Source of the DNA: Pontixanthobacter gangjinensis
Lineage (GTDB): Bacteria > Pseudomonadota > Alphaproteobacteria > Sphingomonadales > Sphingomonadaceae
NCBI RefSeq assembly: GCF_009827545.1
Contig: NZ_WTYS01000001.1
Location: 2,009,772 to 2,073,771, forward strand
DNA: 64,000 nt
Direction of reading: 5' to 3'
Shown here: positions 54,137 to 63,526 of the stretch, piece after piece
Layout of the letters: every line of letters begins with the position of its first letter
How positions within the stretch are numbered: position 1 is the stretch's first letter
Program-made: the position numbers and the translations under genes
The notes under the pieces: model-generated
Told to the model about the DNA's origin: nothing
Databases searched by the model: none
What the model saw: only the letters and a program-made list of their open reading frames with translations

Positions 54137-54211
54137 TCCCCGATAGCTCAGCGGTAGAGTAGGTGACTGTTAATCACTTGGTCGTTGGTTCGAATCCAAC
54201 TCGGGGAGCCA
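54137..54211 (+). tRNA. tRNA-Asn (GTT anticodon), integration site of the element
   Basis: The 75-nt cloverleaf has acceptor TCCCCGA paired with TCGGGGA, a D arm AGCTCAGCGGTAGAGT, the anticodon stem GGTGA/TCACT around CTGTTAA (anticodon GTT), the T arm GTTGGTTCGAATCCAAC, discriminator G and CCA. Its last 19 bases (54193-54211) are the left attachment core of the mobile element, and the tRNA stays complete. Confidence 0.98.
54193..54211 (+). repeat. attL core (19 bp)
   Basis: AATCCAACTCGGGGAGCCA is the 3' end of tRNA-Asn, covering half of the T arm, the acceptor strand, the discriminator and CCA. The identical sequence at 63508-63526 makes this the left attachment core. Confidence 0.92.
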
Positions 54212-54438
54212 CCACCTTGGCTTAAGTCTTTGTTTTTTATGGGCCTTCTTCTTTTTAGATAAGGGCGTCCCCACATTTGATACCACGTTTGAACAAAAAA
54301 ACTCCTTTGGAGAATTTTGCAGTATCACGCGCTGGACACTACTTGCGTGATGCTCGTTTGTTGTGGAGCCAAGACTGTCGAACGATTAACACAACCCTCT
54401 CAATGACGGGAAATTTCGGCGGCACAGTCGGGGTGGAA

Positions 54439-54816
54439 ATGGCGACGGAGAAGTTCAAGGAACGTCTTGAACGGGCAGTCGAGCTAACTTTATCAGAATT
54501 TGCAAACGGCTTCACTAAACGCAAGTCAGTATGGCTAAACACCCACGACGAGTTCGAGAAAATGATTGGCAATATTTTTGCTGATATTGGTGAAGAATTA
54601 GCCCAATCGATGTGGCGCGGCGAAAACGACCTCAATCCAGAATACCTTCGGAGACTAGATTTATCGTTGTCTCAATCGAAAGTTGAAGTACAGGCCCATA
54701 AAATAGGCTGGACGGCTCCTAAAGCTGAAAAGTGGCATGAACTTCACCCACTCTGGTTCACCACACTAACCTCGACCATCTCAGCTGTGAGTGGCTTCTT
54801 ATTGGGTCGAATTTAG
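54439..54816 (+). CDS. Hypothetical C-terminally anchored membrane protein (element cargo)
   Basis: This roughly 125-residue protein has charged, helix-rich N-terminal two thirds (FKERLERAVELTLSEFANGF) and one C-terminal hydrophobic helix (LTSTISAVSGFLLG). The ATG at 54439 has a GGGGTGG ribosome-binding site; upstream in-frame starts at 54403 (ATG) and 54277 (TTG) are weaker. It lies on the opposite strand to the phage-type genes, next to attL, a common cargo position. No family is recognised. Confidence 0.6.
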   Translation: MATEKFKERLERAVELTLSEFANGFTKRKSVWLNTHDEFEKMIGNIFADIGEELAQSMWRGENDLNPEYLRRLDLSLSQSKVEVQAHKIGWTAPKAEKWHELHPLWFTTLTSTISAVSGFLLGRI

Positions 54817-55038
54817 ACCTCCAAAACTAGGCCCAATCCGCCTAGGCCTTCGCCCACAATCGCCACACTTAAACCGCCGCTCGATCTTGTCCATATGGTG
54901 CGGCCATTTGTTCTTTTGGCATAGGTTTAGAAGCTTGGCGGGGTCCAGCACCACCACGCGCCCACAAGCGCAATCCACCCTCAACAGGTAGTTGTTTCGG
55001 ATGTAGTCTGAGATGCTGTTGAGTCGCTGTGTTCCCAT
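54799..55038 (-). CDS. Small zinc-ribbon protein, hypothetical
   Basis: This roughly 79-residue protein has two CxC/CxxC pairs: CACGR near residue 23 and CGDCGRRP near residue 57, spaced as in a zinc ribbon. The rest is a short basic helix (LLNLCQKNKWPHHMDKIER). The last 18 bp overlap, in antisense, the end of the preceding gene. Similar small ribbon proteins are scattered in alphaproteobacterial accessory regions. A DNA-binding role is inferred from the fold only. Confidence 0.65.
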   Translation of the reverse strand: MGTQRLNSISDYIRNNYLLRVDCACGRVVVLDPAKLLNLCQKNKWPHHMDKIERRFKCGDCGRRPRRIGPSFGGLNSTQ

Positions 55039-55162
55039 CGCTGGCAGTTGGAACAAATGCAGAACTCTGGCAAGTCACCTCTTAACTCTCTTGTTCCATA
55101 TTCTCATTCGTTTACGCTAAAACTGAAGCCAGTTTGGTCAAACTGACATGGGGCATCCAAAA

Positions 55163-55627
55163 ATGGAAAAAGTCATGCAAAAACTTGTTGTAACCTTTGC
55201 GTTAGTTTTAGCTGCTTGTGGGTCCCCAAGCGAAGATGGGGAAGCCCCACCGATGGAAAGCGAGGCAGTGGCTAGCGCGCCAACTGAGCCATTATCAAGT
55301 GACGATCTAGTTAGGGTATGTAGAGCAGCCGCTGCATTCCGAGGTAGTGAGTCCGTTGCGGACGTTTCTGGAACTGTTGCCGAAATCAACTTAGTCCGCC
55401 TGTCTTACACCCGCCAATCGGATCAAAAGCTGTTCAAATACGACTGCCGTGTGGAAGGCTCGCGGGTTGATCTAAGAATGATCGATGAAGCTGGTCCGGG
55501 AACAGGCCCAAGTGGCTGGTCCGGTAAAGGCTCGACAATCACCCATTCCATCAACGCTGAAGGCGTTCAAATGACGGAGAGTTTTGGTCCTGGTGATAGC
55601 CTGACTGAATTTGTCGCGGTGCAATAG
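55163..55627 (+). CDS. Hypothetical lipoprotein (element cargo)
   Basis: This roughly 154-residue protein has a lipoprotein signal: MQKLVVTFALVLAACGS, with the lipobox LAAC. The mature part has an acidic linker, then a globular region with Cys residues (VCRAAAAF and KYDCRVEG) that may form a disulfide. Starts at 55148, 55163 and 55175 are all possible. Its position beside the attL end and its plus-strand orientation suggest lysogenic cargo, possibly superinfection exclusion, but this is an inference. Confidence 0.65.
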   Translation: MEKVMQKLVVTFALVLAACGSPSEDGEAPPMESEAVASAPTEPLSSDDLVRVCRAAAAFRGSESVADVSGTVAEINLVRLSYTRQSDQKLFKYDCRVEGSRVDLRMIDEAGPGTGPSGWSGKGSTITHSINAEGVQMTESFGPGDSLTEFVAVQ

Positions 55628-55639
55628 CCGCTGCGCAGA

Positions 55640-56233
55640 TTAAACGGCTCTCTCAACCGCGCTCGAAACGCCCTTGGCGCTAACCTCGTAGCGAACGACA
55701 TTGCCGCCCACATATATCCCCGGCTTAGAAAGGCCCATATAGTGCGCAGGCGTGTCGCATTGGTGTGCAATCGCCTTTTTCATCCGGTGCCGCGTCCAGC
55801 CCTTTTGAAAGCCATCTAGGATAGGCGCATCCCGATAATGAGAGGAGGTCCAAGCTTCGACTTCTAGCGGCTCATGCGGAACGCCTAGCCCGTCAATGTC
55901 GCAACCGCTCACAATGAACAGGCGGGGTTTTCCGTTGTCTGCAACTGCCAGCAATATCCGCGCAAATGCGCCGCGCTCCACTGCACTCTTGCTTGCTTCC
56001 GTAGCCGCCGCCAGCAACTCGCCTAGATTCGACGGATAAGCATTGCCAACTTGCTCGGCAATCTCGGCAGGGGTGCAACCTACTGTCGTAACAGTGCCTA
56101 CAAATGGCCATTCAAGCCCTTGGAAGGCTTTCGAGATATATCCTAGCAGATTGCCGCTTTCCTTGTCGTATGCCGCTGTATCGGCCCACAGGATGGCTTT
56201 GCCGCCGAGCTTCATTCCATTCTGTAATGTCAT
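55640..56233 (-). CDS. Unrecognised late-region protein of the element (197 residues)
   Basis: This 197-residue protein begins MTLQNGMKLGGKAILWADTA and alternates short hydrophobic strands with helices; GVPHEPLEVEAWTSSHYRD and a terminal GIYVGGNVVRYEVSAKG are the most distinctive stretches. The strand pattern is loosely reminiscent of Ntn-hydrolase-like phage proteins, but I cannot establish that. The ATG has a GAGG site and starts 12 bp after the small gene upstream, so it is the last gene of the capsid transcript. Confidence 0.6.
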   Translation of the reverse strand: MTLQNGMKLGGKAILWADTAAYDKESGNLLGYISKAFQGLEWPFVGTVTTVGCTPAEIAEQVGNAYPSNLGELLAAATEASKSAVERGAFARILLAVADNGKPRLFIVSGCDIDGLGVPHEPLEVEAWTSSHYRDAPILDGFQKGWTRHRMKKAIAHQCDTPAHYMGLSKPGIYVGGNVVRYEVSAKGVSSAVERAV

Positions 56234-56245
56234 GGCAACCTCGTT

Positions 56246-56446
56246 CTAATCTGGAGGGCGCTTAATCGCGCCCGCTGTAATGATTGCCGCAATCTCGGCA
56301 GGGATAGAAACTTGCGCAGGCGGTCCCGCTACTTGGCCAGCAAAAGACACAAAAGCCGCGCTTCCGATACCAGCGGTTGCAATCGTTCCCGCAACCAACG
56401 CAACCGCGCCTGCTATTATGCCAATTGTCTTGATTGCTTTTGCGAT
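56246..56446 (-). CDS. Small hydrophobic protein with a possible ATC start
   Basis: An open frame after an in-frame TGA encodes IAKAIKTIGIIAGAVALVAG, then TIATAGIGSAAFVSF and a Pro-rich tail ending GAIKRPPD. No ATG, GTG or TTG lies near its N-terminus, but an AAGGAA ribosome-binding site (56453-56458) is placed six bases before an ATC at 56446. The first 45 residues resemble short hydrophobic phage tail-region proteins. It may start at a non-canonical codon, or it may be a gene whose ATG was lost by mutation or sequencing error. Confidence 0.45.
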   Translation of the reverse strand: MAKAIKTIGIIAGAVALVAGTIATAGIGSAAFVSFAGQVAGPPAQVSIPAEIAAIITAGAIKRPPD

Positions 56447-56642
56447 TTCTTGTTCCTTTCAAGGCCTCAAATTCTGAACTGTGAATATGGGTTTTTTAAC
56501 CCCATCCGATCCGAATGGTTAAGCGGCTCTAGGCTTTCCCAAAGCCCCCTAAGGGTTGGCGGACGATGCCTACTGAATACACCGCCCGCCGCCCTCCTAT
56601 GGCGCACCCTGATGGAAAAAGGGGGGATCTGCGCCAATCTGA

Positions 56643-57734
56643 TTAAGGGGTGTTGCCGAAGTCACCGTAGGAAGTCGCCAGCGGTTGCTTGATTGCAAGT
56701 GCTAGCCTTGACTCAACCCGGATTGTTACGCGGTTGGTGGTGAAATTGTCCCGATCCTCGGTTGATAATGCCACTGTAGGCGCTTGTCGGTCATACAATG
56801 TTGCCGCTCGCATAAAGTCACCAATCAGGAACTTGTCTTTTGGGATTGCGGTTGTGCCAATCACTGGAAGCCCGAAAAGAACAGGGCGAACGTCTGCGCC
56901 GGGATCACCAAGCAAGTATTTGCCGTCCGCATCCTTAAGCAATCGCATCCGCATCCAATCGGAAGGGTGAACTGCAATTCCGTTTGGCATAAACTCAGCC
57001 AGCGCGACTTGCAGAACGCCTAAACCAACCTTGTCGATCATTGTCTCACTTGCTGGCGTAAAGTCAGCCGCAAACGGGGTCGCGTTGGTGATTAGTCCAT
57101 TAAGGTTTGGCGAAATGCCGCTGCCAGAAAGAATCTGGTTTTCTTCCTCAATTGCCAAACCGTAGCGCATCTCCGTATCAATCACGCTTTGCAGTTGCGG
57201 CGCATCCGATAGGATTTGCACGGTTTGCCGTGTCCAGTGCGCTATCGTTTGAATCGGCAGGTTGCGCAGCTCCCACTCATAGTTTGACTCGCCTTTCATA
57301 GCGCCTTCAACTTGCGGGGCCGCGCCATTGGTGCGGGTCACTTGGTCAAGGTATTCAACCGAGCCGCTAACAGTGTTCACTACGTTCAAAACGTCGCGCA
57401 TTCTCGGCATACGCCCCGGCAAGGCGTTTACATTGCCATCCAGCATAGGCGTAGCAAAGCCGCCTGCGCTGCCGCTTGCGCTTGTGATGTCTTTCATTTC
57501 AATGCGAACGCGGCCGGGTTGTGAGCCTATTACGCTCGAAAGGGTTTTAAGTTCGTCGCTGTCCGTAACTTGCGCGCCCCAACTTTGCGATTGGGAGGAA
57601 AAGCCGCCGCTTGGAATTGCGGAAAACTTCTGCTCCATTTCATCCATGCGAAATTTAAGTTCGGTTGATGGCGCGAGCAAAGCCGCCTTGGTTTCGGCTG
57701 CAAGTTCTTGAATCGTTTTTGTTTGAGTAGTCAT
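56643..57734 (-). CDS. HK97-type phage major capsid protein
   Basis: This 363-residue capsid subunit has an N-terminal helical delta-like segment (about 1-60, TKTIQELAAETKAALLAPST) followed by the HK97 fold. Typical stretches are GGFATPMLDGNVNALPGR, the E-loop-side VEGAMKGESNYEWEL, the spine-helix region VIDTEMRYGLAIEEENQILSG and the late GLPVIGTTAIPKDKFLIGDF. The ATG at 57734 is chosen; the open frame goes to 57863 but enters the hairpin-rich leader. No protease, portal or connector gene accompanies it. Confidence 0.9.
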   Translation of the reverse strand: MTTQTKTIQELAAETKAALLAPSTELKFRMDEMEQKFSAIPSGGFSSQSQSWGAQVTDSDELKTLSSVIGSQPGRVRIEMKDITSASGSAGGFATPMLDGNVNALPGRMPRMRDVLNVVNTVSGSVEYLDQVTRTNGAAPQVEGAMKGESNYEWELRNLPIQTIAHWTRQTVQILSDAPQLQSVIDTEMRYGLAIEEENQILSGSGISPNLNGLITNATPFAADFTPASETMIDKVGLGVLQVALAEFMPNGIAVHPSDWMRMRLLKDADGKYLLGDPGADVRPVLFGLPVIGTTAIPKDKFLIGDFMRAATLYDRQAPTVALSTEDRDNFTTNRVTIRVESRLALAIKQPLATSYGDFGNTP

Positions 57735-57743
57735 TTTGAAAGT

Positions 57744-57997
57744 CCCGAAAATTGTTGATCTCTGCGGATCGTTTCGGGCTTTAGGCAAAGGCCTAGGCGC
57801 ACGGACGATCTCGACATTTAGAAAGCCCGCGCATCCTGCGCTTGCCTCCTGCCAACCATCCAACGCGGTCCCCGCGCCTTCAAACTGGTATGTCGCCGAT
57901 TGCCACTACGGTCCCCGTAGCCATGCGCTCTAGCGTTGCCCCGATAGGTCCCCTATCGCTTAGGCCTGTTCTCCTAAGCATACTTTGATTTGAAAGT
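57744..57997 (-). other. Hairpin-rich leader of the capsid gene with four GGA triloops
   Basis: This 250-bp non-coding stretch is almost entirely inverted repeats. Four perfect short hairpins share the triloop GGA on the transcribed strand (TCC on plus): 57829-57841 (5-bp stem), 57864-57876 (5 bp), 57906-57920 (6 bp) and 57942-57958 (7 bp). The last three also share the closing GG/CC. Others are 57958-57979 (7-bp stem, 8-nt loop), 57982-57997, 57781-57794, and a longer pairing of 57775-57782 with 57822-57829. The stems differ in sequence but keep pairing, which argues for RNA function. Confidence 0.75.
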
Positions 57998-58248
57998 CAA
58001 CCGCCGCCCTTGTGTGCAGCGAACGCTTCAATCAATGCATCGCCATTCTTTTCAATCTGGCGCGCTTGTCCTCGCAACCATTTAGCAGTTTTGGGAGTGC
58101 CTCCGTTCACAAGTGCCCGTTCTACAAGCGCATTCATCATCCCGGTTACTGCCGCTGCTTCGCTAACACCGGACGTTAAAAGGCTATCCAGCCAAGCATG
58201 GGTTTGGTTGTTCACTTGCCTTGCTTCGCTCAATTGGTCGTTCTGCAT
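57997..58248 (-). CDS. Hypothetical helical protein of the element
   Basis: This 83-residue protein is all-helical and polar (VNNQTHAWLDSLLTSGVSEAAAVTGMMNAL). The ATG at 58248 has GGAG six bases upstream; longer starts at 58260 and 58287 are possible. It lies between the small gene behind HNH and the hairpin-rich capsid leader, in the same operon orientation. No family is recognised. Confidence 0.6.
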   Translation of the reverse strand: MQNDQLSEARQVNNQTHAWLDSLLTSGVSEAAAVTGMMNALVERALVNGGTPKTAKWLRGQARQIEKNGDALIEAFAAHKGGG

Positions 58249-58365
58249 TTTAGTCTCCATATTTGGTTGCCTCGCGTGCGCGGGCAAGAATCTGTAATTG
58301 CAATAAAAACGAGGTATCGACCGCTCCCGCCCCTTAGTTGGGCCTGAAGTTTCGTCTCCCCCCCG

Positions 58366-58572
58366 CTATTCGCTCATCGGTATCGAGTCCGCCAAGAATT
58401 CGGCAAGTTCTGTTAGCTTCGCAGTGTCATGGATGCGCACTATTGATTGAATCGCCATTAGCATCGCCGCGTCTGTGCTGTTCTTAATCCCGAGCTCCAC
58501 CATCTCGGATAAGGCATTGTCGATTATCGCTCTAAACTTCGCGTTGTCGTTGTTGTGTGTTCGGTCCTGCAT
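58366..58572 (-). CDS. Small hypothetical protein following HNH
   Basis: This 68-residue acidic helical protein (MQDRTHNNDNAKFRAIIDNA) follows the HNH stop by only 4 bp. The ATG at 58572 has a GGGAG ribosome-binding site in the end of the HNH gene. No family is recognised. Confidence 0.65.
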   Translation of the reverse strand: MQDRTHNNDNAKFRAIIDNALSEMVELGIKNSTDAAMLMAIQSIVRIHDTAKLTELAEFLADSIPMSE

Positions 58573-58576
58573 TGTC

Positions 58577-58888
58577 TCAACTCCCAATGGGCCATCCATC
58601 GGTGCCAAACCGGACCTTGCGCCTCGGCTTATGCCCTTTGTCGGTGATGGTCTTTTCGTGGTGACAGTCAGCGCAAAGCGCCTGAAGGTTTGGCAGTTCA
58701 TCCGTGCCGCCTTTGGCTTTCGGCAGAATATGATCGACATGGTTGGCAACGGTGGGTCTCGGCAGGCAAGTTTGGCAAAGGTGCTTGTCTCGCTCCAAAA
58801 CTAGCTTGCGCAGCTTATCCCATGCCGTGCCGTAGCCTTGCTGGTGTCGGTTGCCCTGTCCGGGCTTGTGCCATGCTATCTTACTCAT
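58577..58888 (-). CDS. HNH endonuclease
   Basis: This 103-residue HNH nuclease has zinc-binding CxxC (HLCQTC near residue 36), the catalytic VDHILPKAKGGTDELPNLQ (H-N of the motif) and CADCHHEKT (second CxxC and final His). Phage HNH proteins of this size sit beside cos sites and assist terminase in DNA packaging; others act alone as nicking or homing enzymes. Here no terminase gene is present, so packaging would depend on a helper. Confidence 0.92.
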   Translation of the reverse strand: MSKIAWHKPGQGNRHQQGYGTAWDKLRKLVLERDKHLCQTCLPRPTVANHVDHILPKAKGGTDELPNLQALCADCHHEKTITDKGHKPRRKVRFGTDGWPIGS

Positions 58889-58893
58889 AATTG

Positions 58894-59019
58894 CCCCACT
58901 TCACTTTTCAGTTCCCTTGAACCACCACCACCACCTCCACCCCCTATAAAGGGGTGGTGGTGGGGAGGTGTTCTGATTGGTTGGCGCACCCCACTTCCCC
59001 ACATCACCCCACCCCACTT
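58894..59019. repeat. G-rich iterons and long inverted repeat (candidate origin or cos)
   Basis: On the minus strand GTGGGG recurs as AAGTGGGG at 58894-58901, 58989-58996 and 59012-59019, with variants at 58997-59004 and 59007-59012 that abut one another at 8-bp spacing. Between them, 58931-58943 and 58951-58963 pair over 12 of 13 positions around a CTATAAA loop. The stretch lies between the RepA-like ATPase and the HNH gene, a position used for replication origins of satellites and for cos sites of HNH phages. The function is an inference. Confidence 0.55.
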
Positions 59020-60263
59020 TTGAAGGTGGGGAGCATGGACGGTTCAACCGCCTCTCCCACGATTAGAAAGGGCTTATCCCGGCCCTTTCCGGGCATTGGG
59101 CGCGTCTCGATTTTGAAAGCTTTATTGGCAGTCCATTGGCTAAGCAGCGACTTCACGCGGGCCTTGTCCGCCTTGTCGCCTAAGTCCGCACCAATGATCT
59201 CGGCAACAGCATTTCCCGCCCAATCCATTGCCTGCACATTCGCGCCATATTCACCCGCTGCGATAAGTTGCTGCACATCAAACAGGTGACGCAAGCTTAT
59301 CCCGTCAAAGGGATCTGGAGGGGTCCATCGTTCAACCGCTCCTACGCTATCGGTGCGGCCATATGCATCCTGATTGCCAAGCTGTGCGGAAGCCTTCTTA
59401 AACCACGTAGCTGCCTGAGCTGGTGCCCTGTTAGGCTTATCGTCATCAACCCGCATGAAGTGGCGCAATTCAGTGGAGTCGGTTATCCCGAACCGCTCAC
59501 CCTCCTCTTTGGTCATTGGGTTTACGACAAGGGTAGAGCGAGCAGCATTGATTAGCGCCACAGCGCCCCGGCCATCCTCTGCCTTGGCTTCGCGCCCACC
59601 CATTTTTTTCGTGTGGTGAACTAGAACGATTGCCGAATTGGTTTCACTGGCAAGGCGCTTCCAACGCTTCGCCACCTTATCCATCATCCTGTTGTCATTC
59701 TCAGATATGGCATGGCTCGAAACGAAAGGATCGACGATCAGAACGTCTATTTTGCGGCGCAGGATTTCAGCCTTCAAGCCAACGTAAACTGGCTCAATTA
59801 TCTCGAAACCATGCTCGCCCTCGATTGCTGTGCAAAGTTCGGTATCAAGCCCGCTATCCAAATAAAGCCGATCAGCGCAATCAGCAGGGCCAGTGCCATG
59901 GTGCATGGCGCAAGCCGAGACTTGACGGTCCAGTTCCTCTTTTGCGTCCTCTAGATTCCACACCCAAACACGGCTTGTTTTCTCTGGCTGCCCAAGCTTG
60001 AGAAAGTCCAATCCGCTCGCAAGCGATAGAGCCGTGCCGATTGTGAAGGTGGATTTGCCAAGCCCTCCAGGTGCTACGATTGCGGTCACTTCGCCGCGCA
60101 AATACCAATAGCCTAAAAGCCAGCTTCTCGGCGGGATAGAGGCTGCATCTGGCCAACTGTAGGGTGTTGCCCTTATCTGCCCTTCATCATGGATCGACAC
60201 GGCATCGCCGCCCATCCAATCACGCGCAGCTTCTGCTTCTCTTTCAAGTGCCAGCGAGTCCAT
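59004..60263 (-). CDS. RepA-like AAA family ATPase (replicative helicase-like)
   Basis: This 419-residue RecA-fold ATPase has Walker A VAPGGLGKST, a hydrophobic Walker B strand VLIVDPFVSS, the HHTKK motif III region (VLVHHTKKMGG) and a basic C-terminal extension. This architecture is that of plasmid and satellite RepA/DnaB-like helicases. It is the best candidate replication protein of the element. The ATG at 60263 overlaps the end of the preceding gene by 20 bp. The last codons run through the iteron array. Confidence 0.88.
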   Translation of the reverse strand: MDSLALEREAEAARDWMGGDAVSIHDEGQIRATPYSWPDAASIPPRSWLLGYWYLRGEVTAIVAPGGLGKSTFTIGTALSLASGLDFLKLGQPEKTSRVWVWNLEDAKEELDRQVSACAMHHGTGPADCADRLYLDSGLDTELCTAIEGEHGFEIIEPVYVGLKAEILRRKIDVLIVDPFVSSHAISENDNRMMDKVAKRWKRLASETNSAIVLVHHTKKMGGREAKAEDGRGAVALINAARSTLVVNPMTKEEGERFGITDSTELRHFMRVDDDKPNRAPAQAATWFKKASAQLGNQDAYGRTDSVGAVERWTPPDPFDGISLRHLFDVQQLIAAGEYGANVQAMDWAGNAVAEIIGADLGDKADKARVKSLLSQWTANKAFKIETRPMPGKGRDKPFLIVGEAVEPSMLPTFKSGVG

Positions 60264-60531
60264 CGTCAGCCTCCAGTTCTTTTGCGCGCTCAGCAAGTCC
60301 GATTAGGTCGCCGCATAAGTCAGCAACCGCTTCAAGGGTGCGAAGGTCGCAATTGGAAAAAACGTGCGCTGTCGCTGCTTCGCTCGCCATCCAAAGAAGG
60401 CTGCGCGCATTGGGTCCGCCCGTTTTGTGAGCGCGAAAGGTGGCAACATCCCGAAAGTTTAGAATGCGCCGCCTCTGCCGATATTCAACGTCAGGAATCG
60501 AGCCTAGAAGGTCACGAATGCTATCGGTCAT
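60244..60531 (-). CDS. Hypothetical protein of the element's early operon
   Basis: This 95-residue protein (MTDSIRDLLGSIPDVEYRQR...) is helical and basic in its first half, with RRRILNFRDVATF. The start at 60531 overlaps the stop of the preceding gene (ATGA), and its end overlaps the ATPase start, so translation is coupled both ways. No family is recognised. Confidence 0.7.
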   Translation of the reverse strand: MTDSIRDLLGSIPDVEYRQRRRILNFRDVATFRAHKTGGPNARSLLWMASEAATAHVFSNCDLRTLEAVADLCGDLIGLAERAKELEADDGLAGT

Positions 60532-60767
60532 GCCGCCGCCCTCCGCTTGCAATCGGGATGGACAGTAATGGGCAAGCCTTGCCGATAACCCTTGTTTTGA
60601 AGCTGCCACAGGATAGACGATAACGGGCCTTTCAGCTTCGCCATGAAGTAATCTGATGGCCAACCGCTGAAAGAGGCTGTGCACCAGCCCGGCTCGCTAT
60701 CAACAGCGGGGATCACGACAATCGCGCGGATAGGCTCCTTTGGAAAATGCAGGATCAAGCCGCTCAA
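60528..60767 (-). CDS. Hypothetical protein of the element's early operon, TTG start
   Basis: This 79-residue protein (MSGLILHFPKEPIRAIVVIP) starts at a TTG at 60767 preceded by GGGAGG at six bases, and overlaps the preceding gene's stop by a few bases. It contains two Trp residues and ends in a basic HPDCKRRAAA tail. No family is recognised. Confidence 0.65.
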   Translation of the reverse strand: MSGLILHFPKEPIRAIVVIPAVDSEPGWCTASFSGWPSDYFMAKLKGPLSSILWQLQNKGYRQGLPITVHPDCKRRAAA

Positions 60768-60994
60768 TTCGCGCCTCCCACTGCTTTAGCAGTCATCGGC
60801 ACAAGTTCGGCCATTTCTGGTTGCGGTTTGGCGAATGCATCGGTTCTGGCAATCTGGCTGTGCATCGCCAAAAGACAAAGCTGGTTGCGGGTCAAAACAA
60901 TGCGGATAGGTTCACCATCGCCGCTAGGGAAAGTGAGCAAGGTATTCTCGCCCGCATCTGTGAAAACCGGAGTGCTGGTGCAAAGAGCAATCAT
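60764..60994 (-). CDS. Hypothetical protein of the element's early operon
   Basis: This 76-residue protein begins MIALCTSTPVFTDAGENTLL and is strand-rich at the N-terminus and helical after it. Its ATG overlaps the upstream stop (TAATG). No family is recognised. Confidence 0.65.
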   Translation of the reverse strand: MIALCTSTPVFTDAGENTLLTFPSGDGEPIRIVLTRNQLCLLAMHSQIARTDAFAKPQPEMAELVPMTAKAVGGAN

Positions 60995-61416
60995 TAGTGA
61001 TACTCCTCTTCGCGGCCATCATGTTCGCTGTCAGGGTCAGCCATTGGACAGCCGGGGCCATAATCTTGCATATGGCCAGCGGGCAAAGGCGAAGTCCAAT
61101 AGTCCTCGTCATATTGGCCAGCGGCATCATCCTCTTCGCCGGGGTCGTCCTCTTCATCGTCGGGCTCGCCATCAATTGCGTCCAGAACGTCAATCAAGGC
61201 CTGCGCAGCTTGTGCAATTTGCTCGCGGTCGATCATTCCTTGAATCAGGAACCTATCACTGTGGCCATTTGGTCCTGCAAAGAAGGCAACACAGGGCCGT
61301 GGCACTAGTGCGACATCTTGCGAAGCTGTCGGGATTTGGCTAAGACTGTGGCTATCCGCTGCAATGGATACCAAAGCCCTCTGCCCTACCGGCAGGGGGT
61401 TTTTCGTTTCCATCAT
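60994..61416 (-). CDS. Acidic hypothetical protein, second gene after AlpA
   Basis: This 140-residue protein has a moderately polar N-terminal half and a strikingly acidic segment at about residues 83-105 (GEPDDEEDDPGEEDDAAG). Such acidic runs occur in DNA-mimic anti-restriction proteins, but also in linkers; no conclusion is possible from sequence alone. The ATG overlaps the AlpA stop (ATGA). Confidence 0.65.
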   Translation of the reverse strand: MMETKNPLPVGQRALVSIAADSHSLSQIPTASQDVALVPRPCVAFFAGPNGHSDRFLIQGMIDREQIAQAAQALIDVLDAIDGEPDDEEDDPGEEDDAAGQYDEDYWTSPLPAGHMQDYGPGCPMADPDSEHDGREEEYH

Positions 61417-61601
61417 GCAGCCTCCCGCTCTTTAACCCGGTCTGCAATCCAAGCGAGAATCTCGTTCTCAGGCCATGCGTTGCAAGCCCCGAGTTTGACA
61501 GGCCGGGGGAATTGCCCGCGCCCGATCATGTCGTAAATTTTTGATTTTTTGAGGCCGATACGATCCTCGACCGATTCAAGCCTTAGTAGTCTCTCTGTCA
61601 T
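61413..61601 (-). CDS. AlpA-family excisionase/transcriptional regulator
   Basis: This 62-residue winged-helix protein starts MTERLLRLESVEDRIGLKKS and continues with KIYDMIGRGQFPRPVKLG, the AlpA/MerR-like DNA-binding signature, ending with WPENEILAWIADRVKER. AlpA proteins activate integrase and early genes of P4-like elements and PICIs. It is the first gene of the leftward operon, whose promoter must lie in the 87 bp upstream. Confidence 0.92.
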   Translation of the reverse strand: MTERLLRLESVEDRIGLKKSKIYDMIGRGQFPRPVKLGACNAWPENEILAWIADRVKEREAA

Positions 61602-61688
61602 ATGCCGTTCTCCGTATGGTTCCGAACGGCAATGTCTAATAATCAGAATTCTAAGCTATGCACCAATATTGCAGGGCCCACCCTAGCG

Positions 61689-62180
61689 TTATGGTGTGCC
61701 ATAAACTCGCTTCCATACCTCAAGACTGTCACGTTTTGGATTGTGCTTCGCCTCGGAAAACTTCTGACGAAAATATCGCAGATATTTCCTTGATGTTCTT
61801 GGAGCCAAACCAAACTTTTCCTTTGCTTCCAACATAACAGAATCATGTTCTCCTCTCGGCACTTCTTGCAAACGACAATGGATAAATAGACCCACCTTAA
61901 TTTTTCTACCGTGATCCTCAAAACTCTCGTTCATACCTCGCTGGCCCGGTTTGCGACCTTTTTTTACGATGTGAAAGTAGCCGACATCCTTTTGGTCTAT
62001 CGCATCAGCAATCTCTGAGGCTATTTCAGGAGGCAGATACCAACCTTTTCGCAGGTAATCCGCAAGTGGTTGAAGGTTTCCGTTATGTAAGCCTGTCCAT
62101 ACCTGCGTAACGAGCATGCCTTGTTCGCCAGTCCAAGTATCGCTGTCCATTGGATCGTAAGTAATGCCCTCTTGCGTCAT
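61689..62180 (-). CDS. Hypothetical protein overlapping the integrase gene
   Basis: This 163-residue protein has a helical C-terminal region with a helix-turn-helix-like stretch (AKEKFGLAPRTSRKYLRYFR). Its ATG overlaps the integrase stop (ATGA, 62177-62180), so it is translated together with the integrase. No family is recognised. A directionality or regulatory factor is an inference from position. Confidence 0.65.
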   Translation of the reverse strand: MTQEGITYDPMDSDTWTGEQGMLVTQVWTGLHNGNLQPLADYLRKGWYLPPEIASEIADAIDQKDVGYFHIVKKGRKPGQRGMNESFEDHGRKIKVGLFIHCRLQEVPRGEHDSVMLEAKEKFGLAPRTSRKYLRYFRQKFSEAKHNPKRDSLEVWKRVYGTP

Positions 62181-63352
62181 TTAGCGCCCCCTCGTCTTGC
62201 TGACGAAAGCGAAGGCGCAACATATTCGCCCCATGCATCCGTTAAAGCAAACCGCTGCTCTTGCAGGTCGCTTGTCAGGTAAACCTTTTCCACGTTCGTT
62301 CCGACTGTGTGAGCAATTGCCATTTCGGCAACCGCAAAGGGAATATGAGGCATTCTCTCCGCTGCCCAATTGCGAAAGCTTTTGCGGAATCCGTGAACTG
62401 TCTCAGTGCGGCCAGCATTCTTCATCATTTTGCCCATTGCCGCGTCAGAAAGCACCTTACCGCGCATTGAGGGGAATATGAGGCCATCGCGCCCAAATAA
62501 GGCCTCAGCGCGGCTTAAAATGGCTAATGCAGCCTCATTCAAGGTGACTGTGTGAGCATTGCCTGTTTTGCTCATTATCTCGGCCTCTCGGTGCCAAGTG
62601 CGCGCTTCTGCATCTATCTGCCCCCAATGGGCCTTTCGAGTTTCACCGGACCTAGCGCCCGTCAAAATTGTGAATAGCAGCGCAAGTCTTGCAGGAGACT
62701 CCTGCTTGGCCAATTCCTCAACAAACAGCGCCGGAACTAGTTTGTAGTCCATGTATGCAAAGCCCTTCGAGCTTGGCTGCTTGGCCAGCCCCGCCCTAAT
62801 CTCAGCCGGATCAGGAACTGGGTTTGTCCGCCACCCTCTCGATTTGCAGAAAGAAAGCACCTGCCCAATTCTGTGCCGAACCTTGCGCGCAATTTGTGGT
62901 TTCTCTGTCCAGATTGGCGATAGCACCGATATTACGTGCGCAGCTTCAATCTGGTCCACTCTGCGCCGCCCAATGACGGGAATTGCGTGTTGCTCCAATG
63001 ATGATTTGAATTGAGTAGCAGTTTTTATATGCCAGCCCTTGCCTAGTTCATCGTAAGCAATCTGGACCGCCTCGCCAAATGTCGGGATCGCCAGCTTATC
63101 CTTATCGCGCTCTGCAATCGGATCGCCGCCGCGTCTTGCAATCTTGCGAAGCATTGCGGCTTTCTCTCTTGCCTCTGTCAAAGTCAGGTCTGCATCGGAA
63201 CCTAAGCCAATGTCTCGGCGGTTTCCGTTCACCTGAACCCTCAAAATCCAAGACCTTGCGCCCGTTTCCTTAACTCGCAAAATTAAGCCAAGCCCGTCCG
63301 AATAAACGCCCGGCCCCGCCTTCTTAACACCTAATGCAGTCAGCTTCGCCAT
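62177..63352 (-). CDS. Tyrosine recombinase (integrase) of the element
   Basis: This 391-residue P4-type integrase has an N-terminal arm-binding domain (DUF4102-like, GVYSDGLGLILRVKETGARS), a core-binding domain and a catalytic domain. The catalytic residues are Arg234 (TGARSGE), Lys262, His320 and Arg323 (VHGFRKSFRNWAAE), His348 and the nucleophile Tyr358 (VEKVYLTSDL). All are present, so it looks functional. It sits 155 bp from the attR core, as is usual for elements integrated in tRNA genes. Confidence 0.96.
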   Translation of the reverse strand: MAKLTALGVKKAGPGVYSDGLGLILRVKETGARSWILRVQVNGNRRDIGLGSDADLTLTEAREKAAMLRKIARRGGDPIAERDKDKLAIPTFGEAVQIAYDELGKGWHIKTATQFKSSLEQHAIPVIGRRRVDQIEAAHVISVLSPIWTEKPQIARKVRHRIGQVLSFCKSRGWRTNPVPDPAEIRAGLAKQPSSKGFAYMDYKLVPALFVEELAKQESPARLALLFTILTGARSGETRKAHWGQIDAEARTWHREAEIMSKTGNAHTVTLNEAALAILSRAEALFGRDGLIFPSMRGKVLSDAAMGKMMKNAGRTETVHGFRKSFRNWAAERMPHIPFAVAEMAIAHTVGTNVEKVYLTSDLQEQRFALTDAWGEYVAPSLSSARRGGAK

Positions 63353-63473
63353 AGGGGAGCCACCTTTACCGTTCCCACGTTAGTTCCCACACTAATACGC
63401 GGATTTATGCGCATTGCAATGGAAAGTTATGGACAGGGAAAACAGCTAAACCCCTCGTATATCGTGTATATTT

Positions 63474-63500
63474 TGGAAGGTTCTGGAAGGGTGCGGAAGA
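63474..63500 (+). repeat. Three GGAAG repeats at 10-bp spacing near attR
   Basis: TGGAAGG (63474-63480), TGGAAGG (63484-63490) and CGGAAGA (63494-63500) lie one helical turn apart and end just before the attR core. This looks like integrase arm-type sites; the sequence also carries CGTATA and TGTATA near 63457-63470. Confidence 0.6.
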
Positions 63501-63507
63501 CCAAAAC

Positions 63508-63526
63508 AATCCAACTCGGGGAGCCA
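63508..63526 (+). repeat. attR core (19 bp)
   Basis: This 19-bp exact copy of the tRNA-Asn 3' end marks the right boundary of the element. The chromosome resumes afterwards. Confidence 0.92.

Follow-up and report, generated by a model that had tools for sequence, protein, structure and literature searches.

Closest described systems

Among described RNA elements, the boxB hairpin of the lambda-type nut site, the coat-protein operator of the MS2/R17 type and the binding hairpins of CsrA/RsmE come closest to the one considered here, an array of short hairpins in the leader of the major capsid gene of a satellite-like island in Pontixanthobacter gangjinensis (Sphingomonadaceae), within a 64,000-nucleotide (nt) stretch of contig NZ_WTYS01000001.1 that we call the window. 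The boxB hairpin also has a short stem and a purine-rich pentaloop with a GNRA-like start in phage operon RNA; the loops described below are, however, GNGAN and not of the GAARA type, and the hairpins form pairs or arrays before the capsid gene. The MS2/R17 operator is likewise a phage hairpin tied to the coat gene, with a fixed loop and a variable stem, but the phages in question here are double-stranded DNA tailed phages, in which 84-112 nt separate the hairpin from the capsid start downstream of it. RNA phages are the textbook case of coat synthesis governed by an RNA operator; none is known for the capsid genes of HK97-type tailed phages. The CsrA/RsmE hairpins share with the window the repetition and the GGA in the loops; unlike them, the relatives of the window hairpins have loops mostly without GGA, and the host gave no CsrA hit.

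The island, for its part, recalls the capsid-forming phage-inducible chromosomal islands, whose set, as published, consists of capsid, protease, portal, connectors, terminases and HNH (PMC10690885). Like them, it is satellite-like and has an integrase, an HNH gene and a major capsid gene of its own. Unlike them, it yielded no recognised protease, portal, connector or terminase, nor a tail gene, among the scanned open reading frames (ORFs; several of fewer than 90 amino acids lay outside the scan), which gave capsid, HNH, integrase and AAA rather than the complete capsid and packaging set; the passages of that account that were consulted do not mention a leader RNA.

The hairpins of the window belong to an element with short stems and a GNGA-type loop, usually the pentaloop GNGAN, that lies 5' of the capsid start, in coding sequence in phages and in non-coding leaders in islands. 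We favor the reading that they represent, in a satellite, an RNA element conserved among phages, and that a partner binding it controls capsid synthesis, most likely at translation; our confidence in this stops just short of even.

Hairpins of the window leader

The leader RNA region extends over 266 nt from a TTGAC box at the end of a small ORF to the capsid start (57735..58000, minus strand) and has homologous leaders in two related islands, L034 and L007. An earlier note, made from the letters of the window, described four perfect hairpins with a GGA triloop in it, and all four are present on the minus strand as claimed (loops in brackets): hairpin 1, CGATAGG[GGA]CCTATCG, 7 bp, 57958-57942; hairpin 2, CTACGG[GGA]CCGTAG, 6 bp, 57920-57906; hairpin 3, CGCGG[GGA]CCGCG, 5 bp, 57876-57864; and hairpin 4, GCGCA[GGA]TGCGC, 5 bp, 57841-57829. 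The closing GG/CC pairs ascribed to three of them are indeed shared, by the three at higher coordinates. No other triloop hairpin with at least five Watson-Crick pairs occurs in the leader, so that the loop is GGA in 4 of 4. When the 264 nt at 57735-57998 were dinucleotide-shuffled 5000 times, three triloop hairpins arose in 8 shuffles and four in none; at most two had the same loop (8 of 5000 shuffles), and more than two alike were never obtained.

Judged by the homologues, three of the four appear better read as the pentaloop GGGAC closed by a G-C pair: CGATAG[GGGAC]CTATCG (57942..57958), CTACG[GGGAC]CGTAG (57906..57920) and CGCG[GGGAC]CGCG (57864..57876). The fourth (57829..57841) becomes AGGAU in this register and falls outside the GNGAN pattern of the family.

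A hairpin pair in phage protease genes

The same bacterial family also has phage-like loci whose capsids are 37-45% identical, and these loci bear hairpins of this type within the prohead-protease gene, at its 3' end. Across 37 loci (a set that includes the window and islands, and in which L006 and L041 are the same element), GNGAN accounts for 45 of 266 pentaloop hairpins in the 1-kb regions. The enrichment is local: in 20-kb loci (16 oriented ones among 20 fetched), it accounts for 27 of 75 pentaloop hairpins between -500 and 0 of the capsid against 46 of 1804 elsewhere. Among viral contigs, of which the best 80 of 588 relatives were kept and 78 scanned, the count is 141 of 466. The 72 viral loci with at least 500 nt upstream contain a pair of hairpins 66 or 69 nt apart in 64 cases, one hairpin or another spacing in 6 and none in 2, and the GNGAN rate in them is 136/351 on the sense strand and 16/317 on the antisense strand; the viral loci being mutually related, these counts are not independent. 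A third GNGAN hairpin, of 8 bp and with the loop GCGAT, lies between the two members of the pair, H1 and H2, at the protease 3' end of L021 and L022, at spacings of 32 and 34 nt that resemble those of the islands.

A protein motif found the C-terminal stretch of the protease in 77 of 94 loci, 59 of them distinct; the 17 dropped had too short an upstream sequence in some cases and a motif misfit in others. H1, CCTGC[GNGAN]GCAGG, hardly varies in sequence, and its support is, therefore, codon bias: its alanine codon is GCA in 59/59, compared with 69 of the 477 other alanine codons of the same stretch. H2, found by motif in 57 of the 59 (all save L269 and L270), has stems that covary through coding changes. 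They interchange A-T/G-C, G-C/A-T and C-G/T-A, and of the 57 encoded peptides, 43 are S[ED]S, 13 are G[ED]P and one is RES, the mixed forms SEP and GES being absent. When each H1/H2 combination is represented once (21 distinct rows), the cells of both hairpins are 99.0% paired against 94.4% in shuffles, 19 cells show double changes against 8.3, and the covariation score is 0.268 against 0.164, none of 500 shuffles reaching the observed value in any of these measures; sliding the stem partners by 1-3 columns lowers the pairing to 25-51%. A lack of covariation in homologues was one of the refuting conditions that the earlier note had set beforehand, and, when this was tested, covariation was found. 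Seven H2 cells hold G-U pairs on the sense strand, which points to the mRNA. With a conserved loop and compensatory stem changes, phage H2 has the features of the protein-binding hairpin of a coat operon. In L269 and L270, which are close to L268/L274, AAGGCTACGCCC takes the place of H2, and H1 is kept. A supposed rule excluding A from loop position 5 did not hold, NV1.1.1 and a third hairpin of vB_MseS-P1 having A there; GAA is rare anyway, at 8 of 202 other Asp/Glu codons.

These data also bear on the possibility that the hairpins are a by-product of protein coding or composition, devoid of RNA function. The overlap of H1 with the conserved peptide LR[ED]AG would fit such an origin, as would the antisense GNGAN rate, which itself exceeds the uniform expectation of 1 in 64, but the coupled amino-acid changes, the invariant GCA codon, the sense excess and the recurrence of the same loops in non-coding leaders render it highly improbable. 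The CsrA-like sponge proposed in the earlier note fares worse still. It would account for the GGA in the window loops, but GGA is missing from most homologous loops, among which GCGAG, GUGAG and GAGAU are common, and a search for PF02599, which in its control run found the family in 3 of 14 genomes, gave no hit in the 100% complete host genome; because the csrA gene is missing from the host, the sponge is practically excluded. The same homologous loops argue against the GGA triloop as the recognized unit, whereas the broader suggestion of the earlier note, a protein- or ribosome-binding RNA, is supported by the fixed loop pattern combined with variable, covarying stems, which probably marks a binding site.

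The annotated records are those of named phages, 15 of which were hand-picked among the 990 and 985 records that matched the capsid. Seven of the 15 have one or more GNGAN hairpins in the 300 nt preceding the capsid: Mesorhizobium phage vB_MseS-P1, Agrobacterium phage Rivra, Sinorhizobium phage NV1.1.1 (with a GGGA tetraloop in addition), Moraxella phage Mcat19, Klebsiella phage ST899-OXA48phi17.2, Pseudomonas phage PotUPM1 and Paraburkholderia phage IPK (start codon guessed). In the named-phage loci, GNGAN makes up 13 of 41 pentaloop hairpins in these 300 nt and 10 of 450 elsewhere; the stems of Mcat19 (TTGCTGG/CCAGCAG) and NV1.1.1 (ATCAGG/CCTGAT) are unlike the rest. When the seven are added to the alignment, 118 of 120 inner H2 cells are paired, the maximum of 5000 shuffles being 108, a figure that is partly circular because the named phages were found as hairpins. 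Of the eight phages lacking the hairpin, two, PMG1 and Pq0, show a hairpin with a GNRA tetraloop at that place. The protease of the bearers is Peptidase_S78 in 5 of 6 scanned and S49 in NV1.1.1 (IPK was outside the scan), and that of the eight non-bearers is Clp protease in 5 and S78 in 3. NV1.1.1 (L362) encodes an S49 protease, yet has 3'-end hairpins with GGGA/GGGAA loops as in the S78 phages. The hosts of the element-bearing phages, which belong to the Alpha-, Beta- and Gammaproteobacteria, make a host factor restricted to sphingomonads unlikely, the pattern being present in named phages of other hosts.

Leaders of related islands

The window, L034 (Qipengyuania nanhaisediminis) and L007 form class I of the island leaders, with the common 3' core ...CGACA...UGUCGAGAUCG...CCCGnn...CGAUCC. 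The relatives of the window in this class carry GNGAN hairpins such as CCCGGA[GCGAG]TCCGGG and CCCAGC[GGGAG]GCTGGG. Counted from the TTGAC box, the hairpins start at 44/81/125 in the window, 43/77/125 in L034 and 74/118 in L007, where the one at 74 has one mismatch and none was found near 43. In class II, L194, L195 and L196 have a shorter leader (137-143 nt), whose hairpins include CGAGT[GAGAT]GCTCG and CGCGT[GAGAC]GCGCG. L035, L041 and L215 also have leaders at this place, but the loops differ, being CTGT in both hairpins of L035, CTA and CTG in L041, and CCAATA and ATG in L215. In all six class II leaders, HP1 starts 42-45 nt and HP2 73-78 nt from the TTGAC box, and 48-57 nt lie between the end of HP2 and the start codon (for L196, positions are counted from a start set by eye).

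The TTGAC box of the window (57996..58000, minus strand; read by eye), a -35-like sequence at the stop of the upstream ORF, has a counterpart in the same position in every class I and II leader but that of L196 (8 of 9, likewise read by eye); it would represent a promoter element, and a simple sigma-70 scan did not include it among its predictions. The near-fixed short distance of the island hairpins behind this box, and their occurrence as pairs or arrays, are what one might expect of processive antitermination, in which boxB- or put-like sites would let the polymerase read through the head operon via an N-like peptide or directly. Put sites lie at a similar short fixed distance behind their promoter, and the loop of lambda boxB, a GNRA-like pentaloop, is resembled by GNGAN. 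The phage pair, however, sits within the protease 3' end, away from the start of the operon, and we consider antitermination rather doubtful.

The class II leader precedes the protease gene in L195 and L196; in L194 (= G594), the prohead protease is reduced to its C-terminal stretch, a separate ORF between the leader and the capsid gene. An assembly signal, with capsid or protease binding the hairpins of their own mRNA so that heads assemble near the site of synthesis or the RNA enters the procapsid, would be consistent with the place of the phage element, in the stretch that codes for the C-terminal end of the protease and adjoins the capsid, and with the retention of only such a stretch ahead of the capsid in L194. 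We know, however, of no such signal in an HK97-type head, and this explanation seems quite improbable. The constant position just before the capsid gene is also compatible with processing or stabilization of the mRNA, whereby an endonuclease or a stabilizing protein acting at the hairpins would yield a separate, long-lived capsid mRNA; but RNase III generally acts on stems longer than 5-7 bp, and a gain in stability would not by itself account for a loop that is conserved, so that this, too, is unlikely.

In a further group, L036, L037, L040, L334, L002, L003 and L039, a small ORF is followed by a gap of ~145-175 nt and then the protease (start codons set by eye). A helix of the CACCUUCGA...UCGAAGGUG type over the ribosome-binding region in L036, L037, L040 and L334 is only a suggestion because, in the alignment of the four sequences, 4 of its 7 pairs are broken in one sequence (two others show changes in both partners) and covariation contributes an unfavorable term.

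The leader of the window has stop codons in all three forward frames. Its fold energy is at z -3.34 against shuffles on the transcribed strand and -3.07 on the opposite strand, values too similar for fold energy alone to pick the strand. In the minimum-energy fold, a long-range helix of CGACAU (57895-57890) with AUGUCG (57817-57812) encloses hairpins 3 and 4 (57812..57895, minus strand), and CGACA/UGUCG-type strands, judged homologous by eye, are also present in L034 and L007; a last stem, CCCGAAA/UUUCGGG, precedes the capsid start (57744..57778, minus strand), with counterparts read by eye at the same place in L034 (CCCGUC/GACGGG) and L007 (CCCGAA/UUCGGG). Kissing of the hairpin loops with complementary leader segments, examined by eye, was inconsistent between elements. 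Two identical 10-bp copies of GACTTTCAAA, in direct orientation, mark the two ends of the leader (57735..57744 and 57989-57998, minus strand), for which reason an insertion was considered; this is unsupported, the homologous leaders of L034 and L007 showing, by eye, no such frame.

The leader sequence has one copy in the host genome and is absent from the other 7 genomes of the genus searched; the plasmid collection gave no DNA match to it, and the phage collection gave a sole match of 24 bases, at chance level. Rfam release 15 recognized only two tRNAs in the window at or above the gathering score; for 57650-58350, it gave three matches with E 3.9-8.4, all far under the cut-offs, and for eight related loci two matches, likewise below them. 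DNA-pattern searches for the class I 3' domain returned, beyond the known islands, almost only chance hits.

The island and its genes

The island spans 9.3 kb between 19-bp repeats of the tRNA-Asn 3' end (54193..63526; repeats at 54193-54211 and 63508-63526) and looks like a phage satellite with a capsid of its own. The major capsid gene (56643..57734, minus strand; PF05065, E 5.6e-42; phrog_10) is the only head gene recognized in it; the sole sign of a terminase is a family match at 61689-62180 with E 0.29. Upstream of the capsid come the small ORF of 83 amino acids (58000..58248, minus strand), 5' of the leader, and then HNH, AAA and integrase. The small ORF, which has similar or analogous counterparts in other leader-bearing islands, is modeled as two helices and has no fitting Pfam or NCBIfam family; an RNA-binding fold was considered for it and set aside, there being no structural match at E 0.001 to the confident AlphaFold model (mean predicted local distance difference test score, pLDDT, 89.7). 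Such islands are rare, the small-ORF profile matching 5 of 397 genomes of the family; their leaders are few and vary in loop length.

Two further features recur in these islands. A small CxC...CxxC zinc-ribbon-like protein is encoded at the far end of the island (54799-55056, minus strand), with counterparts in L034 (12255-12485), L197 (5741-5968) and, in two copies, L213 (12182 and 14456). Upstream of the small ORF lies a conserved element rich in GC, TTTCGCCCGCGC...GCGCGAGG, with ATACAG or a similar sequence ahead of it (window 58287, minus strand; L034 7462, plus; L197 11449, minus; L035 2633, plus), which was not found in the scanned phage loci with the pattern used and could be a packaging site, a promoter or an RNA hairpin.

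Proposed control of capsid expression

The data demand stem pairing and loop recognition in RNA 5' of the capsid. Many phages and some satellites carry the element at this place, ahead of the capsid start, which is in keeping with a role in controlling capsid expression, one of the uses that the earlier note had envisaged. The loops would be bound by a protein of the head module, another phage protein or a widely shared host factor, and the bound protein would regulate the synthesis of the capsid encoded downstream, alone or together with the protease, translation being the most likely level. In the islands, the transcript is predicted to begin close to the hairpins, and helices able to cover the ribosome-binding region come after them, an arrangement in which binding could switch capsid synthesis on or off.

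Several observations weigh against such control. Two of the five covariation measures do not exceed the shuffles ('pairs with both sides changed', 3 vs 2.4; 'further pair types', 6 vs 6.7), L269 and L270 have lost H2, 14 of the 37 loci have no GNGAN hairpin at all in their 1-kb regions, 8 of the 15 named phages have none before the capsid, and the loops of L035, L041 and L215 differ from GNGAN at the same leader positions. In phages, the distance between the H2 loop and the predicted capsid ATG downstream of it is 84-112 nt, which leaves the loop clear of the ribosome-binding site, and exceptionally strong pairing between H2 and that site is confined to one subclade (11 of 52 fall below the 5% background level), so that a general switch between H2 and the ribosome site of the capsid was rejected for phages. 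In class II leaders, competition between HP2 and the ribosome site is modest, at <0.05 of windows in 3 of 6 and <0.05 of shuffles in 2 of 6; overall, the energetic tests of a leader switch are weak to moderate.

A more specific version of capsid control, which we put forward tentatively and hold to be less probable, is that HK97-type tailed phages share an RNA operator, namely the pair of GNGA hairpins in the protease gene; a head protein, which might be the capsid or the C-terminal module of the protease, would act on it to control capsid synthesis, and satellites would have moved the hairpins into a leader with several of them, either to have their own capsid made only under control of the helper or to titrate the regulator of the helper. 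In the open-access full-text literature (subscription papers and preprints were outside the scope), we recognized no description of this element. An RNA signal hidden in the coding sequence of the protease, and placed in a dedicated leader in satellite-like islands, would open control of capsid dosage and crosstalk between helper and satellite to direct tests with simple reporters.
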